From the NCBI RefSeq assembly GCF_000565195.1, contig NZ_CP006720.1:744001-808000 (forward strand): a stretch of DNA of 64,000 nucleotides. The letters are read 5' to 3'. A model generated the notes under the pieces. The model was given only the letters and a program-made list of their open reading frames with translations, was not told where the DNA came from and ran no database searches. The translations under genes and the position numbers were made by a program. The DNA comes from Spiroplasma mirum ATCC 29335 (lineage in GTDB: Bacteria > Bacillota_I > Bacilli_A > Mycoplasmatales > Mycoplasmataceae). This document shows, in pieces, positions 6,583 through 24,716 of this stretch (the first letter of the stretch is position 1; each line of letters begins with the position of its first letter).

Positions 6583-7767
6583 TTACTCTTGATAGATTGG
6601 TGGTAAGGTTATTTTAAAAATACTACTTTGGCACTGATCATTAAGTTTATCAGTTCCATATATTTTAAACTAGAAATCTCTAGGCACTGGGAAGTGCTAA
6701 ATCAAATGTTTCACTCCCAAAGTTAGTTCCTTTTTCGTCATTATAAATTTCATAATCATATTGGGTTGGAAAACCTCACTGCTGAACTGCTAATTTTCCC
6801 ATTACCCGGAAAAGAATTTTTTTCAAATCTTGGTAATTAACTTTTGTCAAATTATTGATTTCTATATAATCCGCAATTTTTATCTTATTTTCTGGATCAT
6901 TGGGATTATATAAAAAATTAGTAAAATAAGATTTATTTGCCGGAACAACCGTTAAATCTAAGTATCAATAAAGTGGTGATGGTGTCCATCTGTTGTATAA
7001 CTTCCATAACGAAAACTAATAGTAATTTTATAAAGACCAGGAGTTTTAAAAAGTTCATTAGTAATATTTTGATCATTAATTTGTATTCGAATCAGCGAAA
7101 ATTTACTACTATTATAAGTAAAAACTGGGAAAACACTTTCATTACTTAAATTATATTTCACATAATTTGTTTTTAAAAATACCTCTTCTAACTGCTGAAC
7201 ACTAAAGTTATTTTGTTCAACCACTAATTTAGCATTCCGTGAAAATGGTTGTAACCCCCGATAAATGGCAGCGTCCATCGGATTAATAATAGGAATGTTG
7301 AATTTAATTGGGTTACTAAATTTATCATGGTACTGAAAACTAGCAAATAAATGAGTATATTCCGGCGGTTAAAAAAATAAACTCTGTGGCTATTTGATTA
7401 TTATATTTTAAATTAATCTCTGGGTTAATTTTAAATTCATATAATCAAATTCTTCGCCATTTCGATAAATAAGTTTGTCAAGTTTATCTCCAAACACATT
7501 TAAAATGGTGTAAATGATATTAGTTAATGATTCACCGACATAAAAACCACCCAAAGGTCCAATATACACCAAGCCAAATTAATGGTGATTAAGCACATTA
7601 ATGACAAAATCATATTCTTTCTCATTTTCAACTGGATCTGGATTAGGCTTTGGTTTGGGAGTTGGTCAAGATGAATTAGGGGATGAAGTTGTTGAACAAC
7701 TAACAGCAAGACCAGCGGCACCAAAGATCATAACTAAAGTACTTAAAATACTTATTATTTTTTTCAT
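6583..7767 (-). pseudogene. Lipoprotein gene, multiply broken
   Basis: ATG 7767 starts a classic mollicute lipoprotein signal peptide (MKKIISILSTLVMIFGAAGL) ending in a lipobox, LAVSC, followed by a Ser/Thr/Pro-rich linker. The frame ends at a TAA near 7577 and continues in other frames with further breaks near 7400, 7270, 6950 and 6680. Readable blocks include GFYVGESLTNIIYTILNVFGD and SNESVFPVFTYNSSKFSLIR. The last block ends LPPIYQE at 6583, beside a small AAGATAAT/ATTATCTT stem-loop (6566-6585). No specific family was recognised; the gene is dead. Confidence 0.7.
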
Positions 7768-14750: not shown

Positions 14751-17447
14751 CTAAACATTAACAGTTACACTATACCCTGGTTGAGGTAAATTATTTTGTA
14801 AAACTGGTTTAATCATTAAGGTAATCTGGTGATTAGTACTTTGTAAGTCTTTCACAAAATAATAATTTTGCGTAGTTTCTCCAATCCGATACCACTTACC
14901 TTCATAAAGATAATAAATTGCATAATAGTCTAAATTAGTTGCTTTGGTACTTTCTCATCCAAAACGAATATTATATAACTCCATATTATTAACCATTCGG
15001 TTAATAACATATTCTGCCGTCGGATTCTTAATTTCCAAGGGAGCATTATGATTGTTATTATTAGTTGTTGGTGTTGTGATTGTAAACTGCCCAACATTAA
15101 ACTTAAACTTATTGGTTTGTGGTTTAATTTGCAATCCAATTTTAGCAATCCGATTGGCAGAGCTAACATTACTTAACTTATTCAAATTTAAATCAATTTT
15201 CACTCATCCCCCGGGTAATTTTTCACTATGATCTGGGGTAATACTTTGACTAGTAGGAATCATTGATTGTTGGTCAGTAGTAGTCACCCAAAAGTTTACT
15301 GTCGCATTACTATTATTATCTGACCCATCATAATAAATAAAACTAACTTGGTGGTTATTACTAATTAAATTAGTTCCCAAAATATCCCAGTCGTATACTT
15401 TGCTGTTATCTCACTGGGCTGGTAAAACTTCACCATTTTTATTGAAGCCACTACCAATAGCAATAGAATTACCCTTTTGGTAGATTGTATCATAATCATA
15501 AAAACCACTTAACGCATTAATATTTAATGGTTTATCTCGCTGAGATTCATCATAAATTTTTCATTGGTAAGTTGGTAAAATATCGGTTAGTCTCTTATTA
15601 GTTCAGGGATAATTATTAGCAACAATCGGTTGGCCATTTTGATCACGTTCCACAAACTGGACACCACTCCCGGTTGAAAAATTGGTTTGTTTGTTTAAAA
15701 CTTGGTCTTCATCAAATAAAGTTGTTTGTTCTTTGACTAAACTACCAATCCCATAACTAGATGAATTATAACCTCCATGGCCTTGATAATCATAAATTTT
15801 TTGTTCTACAAATGGATCAACCTTTCCCTTATTAGAAGCTTTAATTCGGGGATCAGAAATAAACGCTGCTCGTTGGTAAGAACCACTAGGATTTAATCCT
15901 TGATAATCATTTAAAAATCGATTCGATTGTAAACCTTCATCATTACTACTAATAAAAGTGTTGGTTCCTGAAAATTGAATTGTATTAAATAAGTTAGTAA
16001 CTTGAGTAGCAAATAAATATGCGCGGATGGGATTATTAACGCCGTTGGCCTTCGCTCAATTGTAAGCATCCGTTCCAAAAGTTCCAGCGCCAGCATCTAA
16101 ATAAGTTGAAAAACTAGTATATACATCTTTATTATAAGAAGGTTTTCCTCCACGTAACTGTTCTTGGTAAGCTAGCTGACGAAAATCATAAGACCCAAAA
16201 TACTTTGGATTAGCGCCTTCATCAATTATTGTGTGCAAATCACTAGGATGATAATTAGGATTATCTTTTAAGAAATCAACTGTTTTATCCGGAATCTCTC
16301 CAAAATTTAATTGAATTTCAGTGGGAGTAATTTCCCCGTTTGGTTTTTGATAACCACTTGTTGTCATTTTAATTGTTTCTTGGTCATCGTAACCATGACT
16401 TCCTTTCGAAACAGTAGCATCATTACGATAATAAATTACTTTTAATTTTTTAATATTCGGATCGGTCGCAGTACCAACTTTATAATTAAATTCCTTAATA
16501 ATTTCATACATCGTATTATAATCCAAAATTGAACCATTCGGAGCAGCCCCATTTGCTTCATTATTAATAAACCAACCATCAAACCCATTATATTTGGCTA
16601 AGTTAATTAAAATATCAACAATTTTATAACTACCATCACTATTCTGAGCCAAAAAATCTTTCAACATTTCTTTTGTTAATCCGTGATAGCCATCTAAAAA
16701 AACATTTCCAAAAATAGGCGTTCCGTTAACATGGGCCGCATCAATTACATCGGCAGGCGGTGGAACAATTGGTCCTTCAAACCATGATCCCGACCAGTTA
16801 ACATATTCATTAATATATTGTCAATTCAAATTAGTATTTTCAAAAGGATTTTTAGTTCCCACAATTGTGTTATCAAAAGTACGGTGTTTACGCGATGAAA
16901 AACCTAATTGGTTATACTTAATATTTTCATTTTGTTCTGAGGAATTATAAGTCGCGACATATTTTCGGGGTTGCAAAGGAACAACACTGCGATTATATTT
17001 GGCATCATAGTCAGTTGCAGGGTTTCATTCTAAAATTGAATTAAGACGTAAATATTTTTGGGCTAAAGAAGTAACCCCAAAATCTTGGGCATAGTTACCA
17101 TTTGGCATAAATCCTTTATTAAGAGGCACGCCAGTTACTGCTTGTTTTTTAATATTTTGGTTTCACTGAAAACCGGTACTAAATTTGGAATAATCAAGAT
17201 ATCGCCCCTCATGAGCAGGAGTAATATTACCAAGTGGTACTTGGTGGGGAGAATTAGCTAGCATATTATGTTGGTCAGTATTATTAAAAGCAATCCCTTC
17301 CCCATACTGATCACTAGCCCAGTCAAAGTTTGGAAGACTGCTTAGATATTGGTTCCCACTGACACTACCAATTGAACATGATGTTAATAACATTGATGGT
17401 AAGGTAATTATTGTTGCTAAACTTAAATAAATTCATAATTTTCGCAT
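14751..17447 (-). CDS. GH85 endo-beta-N-acetylglucosaminidase lipoprotein
   Basis: Intact 898-residue secreted lipoprotein. Residues 1-24 are a signal peptide with lipobox LLTSC (Cys24), so it should be anchored outside the membrane. The catalytic barrel shows YVNWSGSWFEGPIVPPPADV, NGTPIFGNVFLDGYHG and YNGFDGWFINNEANG. The last matches the GH85 active site, with Asn295 and Glu297 in the NxE arrangement used for substrate-assisted hydrolysis of the chitobiose core of N-glycans. The C-terminal 350 or so residues look like beta-sandwich carbohydrate-binding domains and a fibronectin-like end (NMELYNIRFGWESTKATNLD). Third-to-fourth gene of an ABC-2 operon: 6 nt after a permease, 9 nt before another. 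Likely role: releasing sugars or N-glycans from host glycoproteins. Confidence 0.88.
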
Positions 17448-17453
17448 CTGATC

Positions 17454-18326
17454 TTATCCTTTCATTCCCCAGGTAAAATATTTGGGGGTTAAATAACTAA
17501 AAATACCAATAAGAACAACAATACCAAGGAAGGGTTCTCACACTTGGTTAAAAGCAATAAATGAGACTTGATTAAAATCTTGAATAATTTGGCTAATTCC
17601 AAGCGAGTCTAAAAATTGATAGGAAGTAAATAACATGTTAAATCAAATAAAATATTTAGTTGGACATAGATAGCCAAGAATAATAAATGGTCACATTTTA
17701 TTAGTAATTGTTGGCTGTAAAATAACATCTGAAAAGATTAATAAAAATAAAGTGACAATAGTTAGGGTTGCAAATGACCAATTCCGGTTTGAAATTGCCG
17801 TAGCCATTCACACATATAATAAGGTTAAGAAAAAAGTTAACATTATCATCCCCATGATATAAAGTAACCAAATAAATGGTCTAATATTAGAAAGCAATGG
17901 TAAGTGGAAATTAAAAATTGGAACTAGCGAATAAATATTATATAAAATAATATTGATTAAAACTGAGATACTAGTTAAAGCAAGGTTTAATAGAAAGACT
18001 ACTATAATAATATGATATTGATGTAAATTAATTAACTTAATTTTTTTCAAAAACTGTTTTTGTCGTCACTCCACTAAATATAACCCTAAGTAAAAACTAG
18101 CAATAAAAACTGAAATTGATAAGAAGTTAATTAAAATGGGTGGTAGAATGACAAAAAAACTATAGGTATTTCATAACCACGAACATAGAATTGACAATAA
18201 TCCAGAAAAAATAAAAACAAAAATGTAGGTACGCGGATTAGTAAAAATTACTTTAAAGAGTAAACTGGCTGTTTTATTAAGTTTCAAAAATGTTGGTTTA
18301 CAATGGTCAATAAAATTACTCTTCAT
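17454..18326 (-). CDS. ABC-2 type permease of the GH85 operon (proximal)
   Basis: An intact 290-residue frame with six or so hydrophobic helices. ATG 18326 overlaps the ATPase stop by 11 nt, so translation is probably coupled. A basic N-terminal segment leads into helix 1 (TNPRTYIFVFIFSGLLSIL). The segment LVEWRQKQFLKKIKLINLHQ resembles the WRD/KQLKNFGI region of the distal permease, suggesting that the two arose by duplication. The C-terminus (GMKG) ends 6 nt before the GH85 start and its last codons contain the AAAGGA ribosome site for that gene. Confidence 0.75.
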
Positions 18327-19023
18327 AGCCAACCTCTTTTTCAAAATATTTAATTAACATTTTCCGCAATGTCCCAAATTCTTGTAAAATAGTGTCGATA
18401 TTTTGGTTTAGATAAACAAGTCCATCTTTTAAAATTATTACCCGGTCACACAGCATCTCAACTTCTTCCGGAGTATGCGAAACAATTAATAAATTAATCT
18501 TCTTTAATTGCTTTCATTCTTTGAAAAAATTGACAAGCTTAATTTGCATCTTTAAATCTAATCCGGTAATTAATTCATCTAACACTAAAATTTCTGGATC
18601 ATTTAAAATTGATAAAAAACAATTAAACCGTTGCCGTTGTCCACCTGATAACGAAGCAATGTCTTTTTTTAAAATATTTTTTAATTCAAAAGCATCAATT
18701 AGCTGTTGTCCTTCCACAGTGGTTAAATAACCCTTCCCCTTATAAAATTTAATTAAATCCATCGGCGTTGTTCCCGCTGGTCAATAACCATCTTGAAATT
18801 GGATCCCGATTTTTTTATGAACTTTCTCATTATTATGGTCAATAAAATAAACATGGCCATTATTTGGTTTTAAAACCCCTGAAATAATTTCAACAAGGGT
18901 CGTTTTTCCACTCCCATTTGATCCTAAAATTGCGACTGATTCTGAATCAGCAATTTTTAAATTAATATTTTTTAAGACTTCTTTTTTGCCATAACTTTTA
19001 CTAATATTCTCTAAAATAATCAT
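18316..19023 (-). CDS. ABC transporter ATP-binding protein of the GH85 operon
   Basis: An intact 235-residue nucleotide-binding subunit. Walker A GSNGSGKT is at 34-41, the Q-loop at GIQFQDGYWP, the signature LSGGQ at 125-129, Walker B EILVLDE ends at about 150 and the switch histidine is in IVSHTPEE. It is short and lacks extra domains, as in the CcmA/DrrA-like ATPases that pair with ABC-2 permeases. It sits between a signal-anchored protein gene and the permease whose start it overlaps. It should energise the two permeases of this operon. Confidence 0.9.
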
Positions 19024-19050: not shown

Positions 19051-19800
19051 CTAGTTCAAAAATAATTCATAATATATGGTATTAATTAGTTTATTCATAA
19101 CGGGATCTAACTTTAATAACGGCTTTACCTTTGCCGCCGCTTCATCAGGACCTTCACTTCAGATTGGATTGCCATCACTATCTTTTTTGACTAACGAACC
19201 AAAAGTATAGAAATCAATATTAATTGGTTTTTCAACAGTCCGTCCTAAATCAGGGACCCATATTTTTGCTCATTGATAATAAATCCCCGCGGTGAAATAC
19301 TTCATTACTCATAAACTTAAATATTCATTTGGATTAATAGTATTATTCGTCGGATCATTAATTTTGTTAATGGATAATTCAATATAATATGAACGCAAAC
19401 TTAGCGCACTAAAGACTTGCATATCATACGACAAAATAATTTTATTTTTAATATACTTATTAATAACATCATTTGGAATCCCAATTTCATCATAACCTGG
19501 TTGCCCAGCATGTTCAGCAGCCGTTGGTTTATACTTTTGGTATTCATTATTATAGAAAGCATAAAAATTATTTAAAATCTTATTATTAACTGCTACAATC
19601 TTTTGTTGAGTATCATAATATAAAAACTCTCAAATTTGAAGTTGATCTTTATTTTTTGCTGGTCATCCCCGGTTGGGGTTAACAATTTGGTTTAAATCAT
19701 TAGTAGTATTAAAATTATCATTAACAAAAAAATTAATAATACTAGCCAATGGTAAAACTAAAAATGAACCAAAAAATAAAGCTCAAATTGATCTTTTCAT
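19051..19800 (-). CDS. Signal-anchored extracytoplasmic protein of the GH85 operon
   Basis: An intact 249-residue protein, first in the operon. AAAGGAGAAAAAAAC precedes ATG 19800. An N-terminal hydrophobic segment (ALFFGSFLVLPLASIINFFV) follows Lys-Arg and there is no lipobox cysteine, so it is probably an uncleaved membrane anchor or a secreted protein. The rest is hydrophilic, Asn/Lys/Tyr-rich and mostly helical in appearance. No family recognised. Its position 28 nt upstream of the ATPase suggests an extracellular partner of the transporter or of the glycosidase. Confidence 0.65.
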
Positions 19801-19943: not shown

Positions 19944-20525
19944 TTAATTATTAGCTAATATTAACCATCCGGCAATTAGATTAATTAAGAAAAAAGTAAA
20001 CATACCAAAAGTATCACTAACATAGTCCTAACTGATAATTTTAAGTTTTAAATTTTCAATCATTGGTAAACACCATGTTAAGCTTAAACTAACAGTAACC
20101 AGGGTAATAATTGGTGTTGTCACGATCATTCAAGTGCAAGCTTTTTTAAAGTTTTGTTGTTTCTTATTATAGTTACTACTAGCGGGATTAACTTGTCTCC
20201 TTAAAATTATTACTCCCGAAAATACTAATCATAATAAAGCAATAATTCTCGTTAAAACCTTTAACCATCTGGGTAAGGTTGTGGTAATTCCCAACATTAA
20301 ACTAGGGAAAATTAATAATAACAAGCATAAGATTGCCAAGATTAACAAAATAATCCCGGTGGCAATAACCTGCGAAGTGTTTCCAAAATTATTATTAAAA
20401 TTAATCAATAACAAAATTCCAAAAATTAAGGATACCAAAAAACTAGCGATCACGAAAATTAAATTCCATCATAAACCGGCTTGTAAAACTGAGTTGTATG
20501 TTATAAATATTTTTTGTGGTTTCAT
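19944..20525 (-). pseudogene. Small membrane protein with premature TAG
   Basis: ATG 20525 opens a frame with four to five hydrophobic segments (for example VIASFLVSLIFGILLLINF and ATGIILLILAILCLLLLIFP). It stops at an in-frame TAG (20028-20030) after 165 residues. Reading through gives DYVSDTFGMFTFFLINLIAG, a further membrane helix, to TAA at 19944. A 165-residue truncated product might still be made. Family unknown. Confidence 0.6.
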
Positions 20526-20621
20526 AAAAAAAGATCTTCAGTATAATAATTTAATATTACTTCAAAGTGATAATAACAAAAAGTAAGAAAAAAAGTCAAG
20601 ATAAATTTAATAATCTTACTT

Positions 20622-23360
20622 TTAATTAAATTTAATTTGACTAACATCAATTGTACTTGTTGAATATTTATGAAAAAAGGAAGCACCTCCGCCAATAACA
20701 TACGATTTAACTTGTACGTAAATAAAATTACCGGCTTTTCAAAATTTAATGTAAATATCAGCTCCTACACAGCCAGTTTTGATAAGGGACAGTATAGAAT
20801 CCAGCAAACTTTTGATAATTTTGACTACCATCCTTGGGAATTACACGATCAACAGCTAAGGAACCAAAGGAAGTTAATGTTTGATCATAACTAAAACTAT
20901 CCGCGTGAATTTTACCAACCATTTTGGTAACACTAATAGTTCGATATTGAAGAATAAAGTCATCTCAATTATCAGCATATTTAGTTCAATCAATCATTGC
21001 AAAGAATGATGATTCATTGCTATACTGTGCGACAATACCCCATTCGTCTATTTTTACTTGATGCTGGTAGAATTCCACTGAGAACATTAACGATTAAAGA
21101 ATTTTTGGGAATCATTACCATTAATTTAATATTAGCACTGTTGAAATAATTAATTATATTAGTACCATCAATTTTAATATTAATTAAAATACCTTGCCCA
21201 GTAGTGAGTACCCTGTCAAGTGTCAAAACAATAATTCCCTTTACATGCACATCATTTTTTAAAACCGAATTAATGTTAGGATCCGTGCTGATCGCTTTGA
21301 CTAATTCATCTTGACTAGTACTTTTAATGGTAAAGGTTCCATCCTGCGAATAATTACCGCTAAAATAACTTATTAAATCAATTGTGGTTGCTTTAATTAA
21401 TAAAGTTAATGTTGTTTTCCCTTTATAATTAGCAGCATTATTTGCGTCAATAATAATATTAATTTTATGGAGTTGATTATCATTAATTAGTTTTGATTCT
21501 GTTGTTATTGAAACTCCTGGTAAGGTTATATTTTTTAATTGGGGATTTAAGGCAACCACATTTTTTAAAGCATCGAATAATTCTCTCGTGTTAACATCTG
21601 GTTCTATCACAACAGACAAACTTGTTAAATCTTGGTTTCAATTGGTAATATCTGTTTTGGGATAGACCATTAAAACTAAAATGTTGGCAGTTCCCATATA
21701 ATCTTGTGATCCGTTAGCGTTAACTGTAATTGCAATATCATGGGCTACTAAATCATCTTGGGGAAGTTTCAAAGTTGTGCTAACAATTACCCGCAGATCA
21801 TTAATGGCACTTAGAATGACCGGATTAGTTTGTTTAATTTGTTTTAACGCTTTAATTAGGGGTGATAAATTAACACTAGTACTAATAATGTTTCCATAAG
21901 TCGTATAGTTTTCCCTATCATTAGTAATATCAGTTTTACTTGTTTTGGCCATTAACTTAATTGTCGCAATCCCGGTATAATCTAAAGTTTGATAAGCATT
22001 TAAAGTAATATCAAGCTCGTGGGGAACACCATTATTTGGCAATTTAGAATAGGATACAATTAATAAGTTGCTTTCTTTTAAAACATTTAAAGTTGTTTGG
22101 TTAATTCCCTGTACTTTTTGCAATGCATTGCATAAACTTGTGGGGTTAGGATTTTGTTCGCTAACTGCGGGGTAAGAAGTTAAATCTTAACTTAAACTAC
22201 TAATGTTCATTTTCCCAGTTTGTGCTTGTAACGTAATTGTTAACTGACCACTATATGCCAAAGTATTTGTGGCATCAATTGTTACCTTTAATAAATGACT
22301 ATGTCCATCATCGGGTAACGGTGATTTAGTGGTTAAAATAATATTTGGATCCTGGGCCGAAGCAATTAAATGTTTATCCATACCTACTACCGAAGTTATT
22401 AAATAAGTCAGACTATTAAAACTAGTATCTCGAATCGTAACTGGTGATGATGTTGTATAATCATTTTTTAAATGAGAAATATCAAATTTATCGGAAATTA
22501 AATTTAGTTGACAATTAATTTGCCCTTTAAAATTATTAGTATTATTAGCATCCAAGGTAAAACTAATGCGGTGGGCAAACCCATTAGGAATTACTGTACC
22601 TTTAATATTAAGAATTTGAATTCATTTGTCAAGAAGCGCACTTGCTAAATTAGAATTTAAGTTTGGTAATAATTTAAGAGAATTTAATAAACTAGTAGTA
22701 TCAATATTAGCAATGTGCAGAGGATTATTATGGCTAAAATCACCACTTAACTGGAAAACGTCAAACTTAGTAGCTTTAATATTCATCGTGATTGTAGTAG
22801 TTCCCTTAAAAATTTCAGAATGATTGGCATTAATATTAATTTTCATTAAGTGATATCCCCCATCATATTGGAGCGGATCACTAGTTGTTAAAATTGTGGT
22901 ATTATCATTAATTGCACTTTGTGCAAATCAGCATTTAAATAATTTAAATGCTGATTTGCAGATAATAATTCTTTTAATAAGGTATTTTGAATGGTGACTG
23001 TTGATTTATAATAATCACCACCATCTTGGGAAATATTAATCTGGTGGTCAACTGGGGAACCAGAAGGTTTTAAACTAGTAAAAGTTTGCCAACCGCCAAT
23101 TGCTAAGCCTATTAGTAAAATAATTATTAACACAAAACTAATTTTAAATCATAAATTTGATTTTAAAAATAACACAAAAAAACTTTTCGACACTTAAAAA
23201 TAATTATTAGGGGGTTAAAATTAGTTTCATCCAGGTCTAGATTAATGTTAATTTTATAAACATTAAAATTATTTAGAATAATAATATTTTCTTGTCCAGT
23301 CTTTTTTAGATAACTTAAAATTTTTTTACAACAAATATTGCATATAATATCTTTTTTCAT
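20622..23360 (-). pseudogene. Large modular surface protein with about 100-residue repeats, broken
   Basis: AAGGAAACACCAACA precedes ATG 23360. A cytoplasmic N-terminus contains CNICCKK (a CxxC pair). It is followed, after a frameshift near 23165, by a membrane helix (FVLIIILLIGLAIGGW) and a long extracellular part. That part consists of seven or eight diverged repeats of about 100 residues, each with DANxxxxYxG, alternating beta-strand hydrophobics, KxxxxDI and ending near LPxDGxxH. The core from 22846 to 21020 is a single frame with one TAA near 22190. Other breaks are at 22913, 21050, 20780 and 20760. The C-terminal domain ends with YVIGGGASFFHKYSTSTIDV. Architecture suggests an adhesin or wall-substitute surface protein; no family was recognised. 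Confidence 0.7.
22922..22960. repeat. 39-bp near-perfect palindrome inside the repeat protein
   Basis: TGCAAATCAGCATTTAAAT is followed by A and then ATTTAAATGCTGATTTGCA, its reverse complement. Only the central base is unpaired. It lies in the first repeat module, next to a frameshift. Confidence 0.85.
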
Positions 23361-23531: not shown

Positions 23532-24716
23532 TTAATCATCGAATTTAATTTTTTCGAAATCAACTTTAGTTTTCTTTTTTGTTTGGTATAAATCTAAATC
23601 AGCTTGCGAATATTTTGGATTATTAAAACAAATAAACGCAATGGCAATATCAAAAATTGGACCCAGAATTCAAATTCAGTTAAAACAAATTAAAGCAACC
23701 GATAAGAATCCGACAATAATGCGCGCTCAATAGAAATTAGCAAAACTAAAGATACTAAACACAATAGTAATTGTACTAAAAACAATAATAATAATACTAA
23801 AGGCCAGCACAATGCTATTATTATAAGGATAGTTTAAAACTTTTGATCACACATCTCGTAAGGTATAATATAAGACTGAAAAAATAATATTAAAACAAGC
23901 AACCACAATGGCTAAAATTAAGGCAATTTTCCCCTTATAATCAAGTTTTTGATATTTTTTAATATCAATAATTATTTTAATTTCTTTAACTTTTTCAGGG
24001 TGATGTTCTTTAATTTGCTTTTTAAAATAAAATAAATTATTAACCCAAATAAAAAAGTATTGAAATGATGTACATAAAACTAAGACTAAGACACTTCCGG
24101 TGGCTAGCATTACCACCCCATTGGTTGCATAAAAATCTAAGAAGAAATATGGAAATAAAGTGTTTTCTGGTTTATGATCTAAATGACGAATATATCCCCG
24201 CACTAACACATAAATTAAATATAAAAAAGGATATAAACAAATTATTCAGTAGTTTCCTTTATGATGATTACTAAACTTATAAAAAGCATCCCCAGCGGTC
24301 ATACAGAAACTTAAAATCATCGCTACCGGAATAACAGTGTGTAAAATAAAGGTTGAAATTCATTCATAAGCTGACATCCCCCGTACAATATCACCCTGGG
24401 TAAATAAGCCTAACCAAAAAACTAACATTGTCATCGTAATGTATACGGTAACCATTAACCGAATAATAAAATCAGGTTTCGTATTTTTAAACTTTTTATG
24501 AAATAAATAAAACACAAAATACCCAAAAACCAAATAATTTGATTGGGTTGTAAAATAAGCATAATAATGGCTCAAGCGTTCTCCATAAGAATTTAAGTGG
24601 TCAGCACCAGCAGTGTTTAACACTAAAATAAAATCAAGAACTAAAAAAATAAAAATTAAGATAACTCCTATAATCCGATAGATTAGTAGCATTTTATCAG
24701 TAAATAATTTTTTCAT
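23532..24716 (-). CDS. Multi-pass membrane protein, Pr6Pr-like
   Basis: An intact 394-residue frame with nine or ten hydrophobic segments. The region from LSHYYAYFTTQSNYLVFGYF through RLMVTVYITMTMLVFWL, and later FPYFFLDFYATNGVVMLATG, resembles the FAR-17a/AIG1-like (Pr6Pr) membrane proteins common in spiroplasmas. The conserved pattern is a Thr-rich second helix plus histidine-containing loops. Eukaryotic AIG1/ADTRP members are Thr/His hydrolases of fatty-acid esters; whether the bacterial ones share this is unknown. The C-terminal tail is charged (KKKTKVDFEKIKFDD). Monocistronic, transcribed away from the gene at 25031. Confidence 0.6.

Follow-up and report, generated by a model that had tools for sequence, protein, structure and literature searches.

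The stretch of DNA analyzed here, in the following called the window, comprises 64,000 nucleotides of Spiroplasma mirum ATCC 29335 (positions 744001–808000 of a single-contig genome of 1,132,608 bases with a G+C content of ∼30%) and has been read with genetic code 4. Its locus at 23360–20622 on the minus strand is a decayed copy of a gene for a large cell-surface protein of Spiroplasma. The remains of this one gene consist of open frames in three reading frames, which match one long protein, and the sister genome (G004, presumably S. eriocheiris) carries a syntenic ortholog (L030:1545–4568, minus strand) that is open over 1008 residues from the first methionine and flanked on both sides by the same neighbors as the window copy. 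We consider it somewhat probable (about 0.55) that the intact protein is a fibrillar-adhesin-like stalk and head in the form of a type II membrane protein, with the window copy as its pseudogene. The weight of the finding lies mostly in the family to which the protein belongs and in the inner anchor that its members share, and less in the broken window copy.

Plan of the Protein and Its Modules

The ortholog L030 begins with a cytoplasmic domain (residues 1–∼100, with a CxxC motif and a later cysteine), which is followed by a variable linker, one membrane helix (∼167–190), seven modules (206–848), and a C-terminal head (849–1008). An earlier reading made from the window letters without database searches (the sequence-only reading) had already described a CxxC cytoplasmic segment and a single membrane helix, and both have been found in the window fragments as well as in the ortholog. 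The same reading had counted seven or eight diverged repeats of about 100 residues. When the window modules were mapped with a hidden Markov model (HMM) built from the seven modules of L030, seven have been recovered and no eighth, and they lie contiguous, without linkers, at a period of ∼92 residues instead of 100. Their character as diverged repeats has been borne out, as all 21 module pairs of the ortholog score above each of 200 shuffles per pair (z 9.9–24.9). Within each module the same order is kept, from a DI[ST] start through a helix region, LPxDGxxH, and DANxxxxYxG to a closing K..DI.

Aligned over 104 columns, the 64 modules (window, paralogs, and relatives taken together) have no invariant column, L25 and G80 being nearly so. 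Module 5 of the window is 84% identical to module 5 of the ortholog and 75, 78, and 76% identical to module 5 of three paralogs, and at most 39% identical to the other 59 rows of this alignment. Since the order of the modules is kept between paralogs, the seven-module array is taken to be old and to have been duplicated as a whole gene. The module HMM finds two to seven modules in paralogs of both genomes. Of the 298 genomes of the order, 12 are matched by the module profile, 10 of them belonging to the genus (which counts 14 genomes) and two being marginal; of the 395 genomes of the class it matches six, five from the genus and one marginally. Intact relatives exist elsewhere. Marginal matches outside the genus, of the module in G146, G255, and G543 and of the anchor domain in G219 and G576, have E-values of 1.9e-4 to 7.3e-4 taken together and have been regarded as chance; the frames at those of G255 and G146 look like unrelated proteins. 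No Pfam or NCBIfam model fits the module, in keeping with the earlier statement that the repeat could not be assigned to a named domain. Searches of solved structures by sequence have likewise given no credible match, neither for the module profile (best E 0.032) nor for spiralin (best E 0.2).

A smaller form of the protein, with the same anchor and two modules and with ∼450–475 residues where it is whole, has its gene beside ruvA in G002, G003, G005, G006, G010, G012, and G013, seven genomes of the genus. In G013 only part of ruvA is visible next to it, and the gene is broken in G002, G003, and G006. Beside ruvA of G000 and G004, no two-module anchor gene has been found.

Predicted Fold of One Module

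AlphaFold2 prediction of module 5 together with nine relatives has given a confident model of five strands and two helices, with a predicted local distance difference test score (pLDDT) of 85.5 and a predicted template modeling score of 0.74 for the best model, and a pLDDT of 83.6 to 64.4 for the other four. The structure prediction of a single module, which had been suggested as a check, is in this way available, and two aligners rank Rib domains first for it. Foldseek against the PDB has placed tandem Rib domains at the top (E 0.1), and the first five rows of VIA-align are all Rib domains, with Z-scores of 5.5, 5.4, 5.2, 5.1, and 4.8 over 68–74 residues. The rows after this group reach Z 4.6 and below, and the non-Rib rows (cadherins, the S-layer protein SlpX, and others) score lower without any of them standing clear. 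The module may have an Ig/Rib-like fold and a role as stalk. The predicted resemblance to Rib, at these middling scores, would fit a stalk and is too weak for membership in the Rib family.

A Shared Inner Anchor With Interchangeable Ectodomains

The cytoplasmic domain defines a family that reaches further than the modules. In an alignment of 17 sequences two of its cysteines are invariant and the third nearly so, and no Pfam or NCBIfam model fits this domain either. It has been found in 15 of the 298 genomes of the order, namely in 12 of the 14 genomes of the genus, in two genomes of another genus of the family (E 5e-9 and 8e-8), and in one marginal case, and in eight of the 395 genomes of the class. 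Single genomes carry many copies, with at least 14 matches in G007, at least 12 in G004, and at least eight each in G000 and G009. For a closer comparison, 61 open frames with the anchor domain are available, drawn from the loci around anchor matches, module matches, and ATP-binding cassette (ABC) permeases. The first cysteine position is occupied by C in 59 of them (gap in two), the second by C in 57 (Y and S in one each, gap in two), and the third by C in 54, H in five, and F in one (gap in one), the F belonging to a broken copy. As an exchange of cysteine for histidine is usual for metal ligands, a metal site is proposed for the anchor domain on account of this swap, and the three conserved cysteines probably form it. 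The two proteins from the other genus (L187 and L188, in genomes G035 and G124) have ∼260 residues, a histidine where the third cysteine would stand, and a small ectodomain of a different kind.

No membrane helix is present in 11 of the 61 frames, which are fragments or short. The remaining 50 carry modules of the window kind, called A-type (12), modules of a second type, called B-type (23), spiralin domains (3), blades only (1), or other ectodomains (11), and in a rough count by regular expression 14 of the 23 B-type carriers also show propeller-like blades. The mean net charge of these 50 frames is +3.5 in the 15 residues before the helix and +0.1 in the 15 residues after it, a positive-inside pattern that points to an N-in, C-out (type II) topology. 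Taken together, the compared sequences describe a family in which one shared inner anchor is combined with interchangeable ectodomains, that is, A-type modules, B-type modules, spiralin domains, and beta-propellers. In a scan of nine members, Pfam matches at E ≤ 0.01 have appeared in three (L170, L173, and L184). Reg_prop is matched in L184 above its cut-off (E 3e-11) and the propeller model PF13570 in L142 below the curated one (E 9e-11), while the spiralin domain of L184 reaches 27.9 bits in PF05215 (cut-off 25) and E 8.5e-26 in NCBIfam spiralin_LP, below the cut-off of that model. In L184 (1494–3350, minus strand), spiralin domains and a beta-propeller occur together with the three-cysteine anchor in one protein. 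L173 (528–3500, minus strand) has 990 residues with ten B-type modules, several of them nearly identical, and this near-identity suggests recent tandem growth. A comparison of B-type and A-type modules by hhalign (E 0.0044, reached by 0 of 60 shuffles) is suggestive of remote kinship; it covers 30 columns only, and we do not claim the kinship as shown.

The C-terminal Head

Heads of the window type are found C-terminally in four seven-module proteins, three from G004 (among them one whose frame lacks part of the N-terminus) and one from G000. In other members a beta-propeller occupies the position of the head, and spiralin domains that of the stalk. There is a clear likeness between the heads of L034 and L032 (38%, E 1e-22). 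Heads of this kind are also matched, with 38% identity over 123 residues (E ∼1e-23), by a small protein that occurs free and whose start resembles a signal peptide (L141:5605–6102). The head of L030 shares with the other heads a motif around YADxW in the alignment. Neither a Pfam or NCBIfam match above cut-off nor a known adhesive domain has been found in the head.

Decay of the Window Copy

Relative to L030, the window copy bears at least five lesions. Near 23190–23166, ∼90 residues of the cytoplasmic linker are lost and the frame changes. A frameshift near 22920 interrupts module 1, an in-frame stop follows at 22189–22187, and two further frame changes are located near 21090–21050, at the junction of module 7 and head, and near 20780. 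The N-terminal piece, the start of module 1, the part from the end of module 1 to module 3, modules 4–7, and the two head pieces are separated from one another by different frames or by the stop. The sequence-only reading had called this copy broken while noting that four modules share one long frame, and both points have turned out correct, the latter exactly so for modules 4–7 (22186–21023). At the frameshift in module 1 lies a perfect palindrome of ∼39 bases (22922–22960), beside which two bases are inserted; the palindrome of the ortholog is imperfect, and the event looks like a template-switch mutation.

The ratio of nonsynonymous to synonymous substitution rates (dN/dS) of the five window pieces against the ortholog is 0.05–0.31. 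Four other family pairs between the two genomes (two open over the full length, a third limited to the modules that have an open frame in both copies, and a short pair with two modules) have given 0.11–0.31. As the values of the window pieces are close to those of the other pairs, the decay looks recent, and the ratios indicate that purifying selection acts on the relatives that remain open. One could object that the breaks are sequencing errors and that the window gene is intact, since a single assembly is the source and false frameshifts are possible at homopolymers of low G+C content. We regard this as very improbable, because the lesions also comprise the in-frame stop, the loss of ∼90 residues, and the two-base insertion by the palindrome, and because the neighboring genes at 24716–23532 and 20579–20028 are open. 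For S. mirum, PMC9666726 reports 383 pseudogenes, and for S. eriocheiris 53, counts that speak in the same direction and fit the decay of the window copy. The family also shows one genome shedding copies that its sister has retained.

Proposed Role and Alternative Readings

In the arrangement we favor, the small three-cysteine cytoplasmic domain and the single membrane helix would anchor the protein, and the seven tandem compact modules would form an extracellular stalk. A head of about 110–160 residues would thereby be held away from the membrane and projected to bind a ligand of the host or of the environment, a function that is proposed for the head. The sequence-only reading had spoken of a possible new modular adhesin type. 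A modular protein of surface type from an unnamed family has indeed been found, and on the level of sequence the plan contains the anchor and the tandem stalk-like domains of a fibrillar adhesin. The role as adhesin is something we infer, and that description has moreover been incomplete, as the modules are one of several stalk types on a shared anchor and a head domain of its own forms the C-terminus.

Several results weigh against the stalk-and-head reading. No Foldseek match of the module 5 model to the PDB reaches E ≤ 0.001, and VIA-align Z-scores below 8 may reflect merely a common arrangement. The AlphaFold model of two modules had a pLDDT of 39.3 and has not been used, and a head-to-tail rod of the seven contiguous modules is putative. 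On the level of families, Rib and aRib are absent from the 19 families matched by any of the 64 modules at E ≤ 0.1, PF08428 has no match in G000, and PF18938 has none above cut-off in the 14 genomes of the genus, its weak matches occurring in 11 of 14 control genomes too. Between the head of L030 and the other heads, BLAST has found no match at 1e-3. Finally, the relatives linked to ruvA have two modules and no head, and for this reason the founding function need not be adhesion.

Two other roles have been considered for the same architecture. The family might serve ABC-2 transporters as an accessory or sensory subunit, in which the cysteine domain contacts the transporter or a regulator and the ectodomain senses or captures substrate. 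In seven genomes there are nine loci (L034, L032, L036, L130, L131, L133, L137, L141, and L142) at which an anchor gene or its remnant does lie within ∼2 kb of a permease of ABC-2 type, upstream of the permease in most and downstream in L141 and L142. In the window itself, genes for an ABC ATPase (18319–19023; PF00005, E 4e-23) and for a membrane protein follow ∼1.6 kb downstream, on the strand of the pseudogene, and strongly conserved cysteines in a cytoplasmic domain would suit such a contact. We nevertheless judge this role unlikely, as 11 of the 17 regions around relatives of the permease are without an anchor match (L132, L134–L136, L138–L140, and L143–L146), most of the 61 anchor frames come from loci that were not chosen for a permease, and a seven-module ectodomain is far larger than a sensor requires. 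Quite unlikely in our view is a role that involves no single specific ligand, be it as a general surface coat or shield like spiralin or as an antigen layer that can change. True spiralin domains on the same anchor in L184, the numerous and often broken copies, and the ten partly near-identical B-type modules of L173 would agree with a coat; against it, the modules of the seven-module arrays have diverged and follow one order from paralog to paralog, the open copies are under purifying selection, and distinct C-terminal heads argue for a projected function.

The stalk-and-head reading can be extended, tentatively, to a system spanning the genus for the display of proteins on a wall-less cell. 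One docking domain with its helix, reused in some genomes a dozen times or more, would swap stalks (A-type modules, B-type modules, spiralin domains) and heads (beta-propellers, the window-type head). It might tie the stalks to a common inner partner, for instance an ABC transporter or the cytoskeletal ribbon, and all three kinds of stalk module could be atrophied Ig (Rib-like) folds of one origin.

Features of the Locus and Its Surroundings

Table 1. Features of the decayed gene in the window (coordinates of the window; a remark is added where one applies).
Feature	Position	Strand	Remark
N-terminal three-cysteine cytoplasmic domain (CxxC...C)	23166..23360	-	ATG at 23360; corresponds to ortholog residues 1–64
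Single transmembrane helix, ending in family motif IGGWQ	23080..23151	-	placed from fragment-to-ortholog match
Module 1, first part (frame 2)	22918..23037	-	module HMM
Module 1, second part (frame 1)	22763..22921	-	module HMM; frameshift within module
Module 2	22484..22759	-	module HMM
Module 3	22208..22483	-	module HMM
In-frame stop TAA directly before module 4	22187..22189	-	ortholog reads through
Module 4	21932..22186	-	module HMM
Module 5 (modeled with AlphaFold2)	21653..21931	-	module HMM
Module 6	21383..21652	-	module HMM
Module 7	21104..21373	-	module HMM
C-terminal head, first part	20749..21051	-	frame shifted after module 7
C-terminal head, last part	20625..20777	-	frame shifted again

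The neighboring genes at 19051–19800, 20028–20579, and 23532–24716 (all on the minus strand) have no match in Pfam (E ≤ 0.01) or NCBIfam (E ≤ 0.1), and the same three are found in the same order in the sister genome. Downstream of the pseudogene, a protein of 898 residues (14751–17447, minus strand), which starts like a lipoprotein and carries a domain of glycosyl hydrolase family 85 (PF03644, E 1.8e-26), adjoins the ABC ATPase and the membrane protein. In another genome, contig G012:C1, many near-identical matches to PF05215 occur in frames of ∼117 residues at repeated places (e.g., 6977–7198 and 24444–24665), as if on a mobile element.

Comparison With Known Surface Proteins

In the literature, as far as the sources cited here go, the contact of Spiroplasma with host cells is mostly put down to spiralin and to adhesins, the ScARPs among them. 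Spiralin (PF05215/NF038030), a surface lipoprotein of Spiroplasma, resembles the module in having repeated modules of similar length with a similar order of helix, strand, and strand. PF05215 has matched none of four window pieces or of the 64 modules, and NF038030 none of five window pieces. A first profile comparison had appeared to favor homology (Prob 6.3, E 0.006, 0 of 200 column shuffles), which has been dropped after a larger spiralin alignment gave 4 of 100 and 4 of 60 shuffles reaching the score, so that a similar layout only is left. A lipoprotein start has not been found in the protein, as the ortholog begins with a domain of cytoplasmic type and has its membrane helix at ∼167–190. 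SARP1 and ScARP of Spiroplasma citri are surface proteins with a block of about seven sarpin repeats, which has been shown to be adhesive in ScARP3d; they possess repeats of 38–42 residues, an N-terminal signal peptide, and a C-terminal membrane segment (PMC3485318). The window protein, with its period of ∼92 residues and its N-terminal helix, falls outside this definition. Among mollicutes, the leg protein Gli349 of Mycoplasma mobile is a surface protein with ∼18 repeats of ∼100 residues, and its likeness to the window protein is one of description only. The beta-propeller proteins of Spiroplasma with PF13570 (PQQ-like) are matched by the same Pfam model as members of the anchor family, the window protein, unlike them, being free of a propeller. 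They have been published as being of unknown function, and the passages devoted to them name neither a cysteine anchor nor modules (PMC12453411). Neither the module nor the shared anchor has been found described in the open-licence PMC papers searched.

The closest structural likeness is that to the Rib (PF08428) and aRib (PF18938) domains of streptococcal and lactobacillar surface proteins, which are likewise tandem modules of ∼80–95 residues and share with the predicted fold of the module helices and a C-terminal three-stranded part. Rib has been described as an Ig fold minus strands, and tandem Rib domains are arranged head to tail in a relatively rigid rod (PMC6936399). In contrast, the window module is ∼10 residues longer, the protein has its anchor in a membrane helix at the N-terminal side, and the genus is without cell wall (PMC12453411). 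Similarity to aRib by sequence, seen for L173 at E 0.001 and below cut-off, has been rejected because the genome-wide noise is similar in controls. An adhesin-like protein, ALP, is known from S. eriocheiris (PMC5266718). Modular surface proteins with stalk and head are a known kind, and the Spiroplasma family itself is unnamed in Pfam and NCBIfam. For these wall-less symbionts and pathogens, the family offers defined, expressible domains for binding tests. If our reading is true, many unnamed genes would find their place in a further and larger surface family of Spiroplasma built on one inner anchor, and this family would link the unexplained beta-propeller proteins both to spiralin and to the module family.
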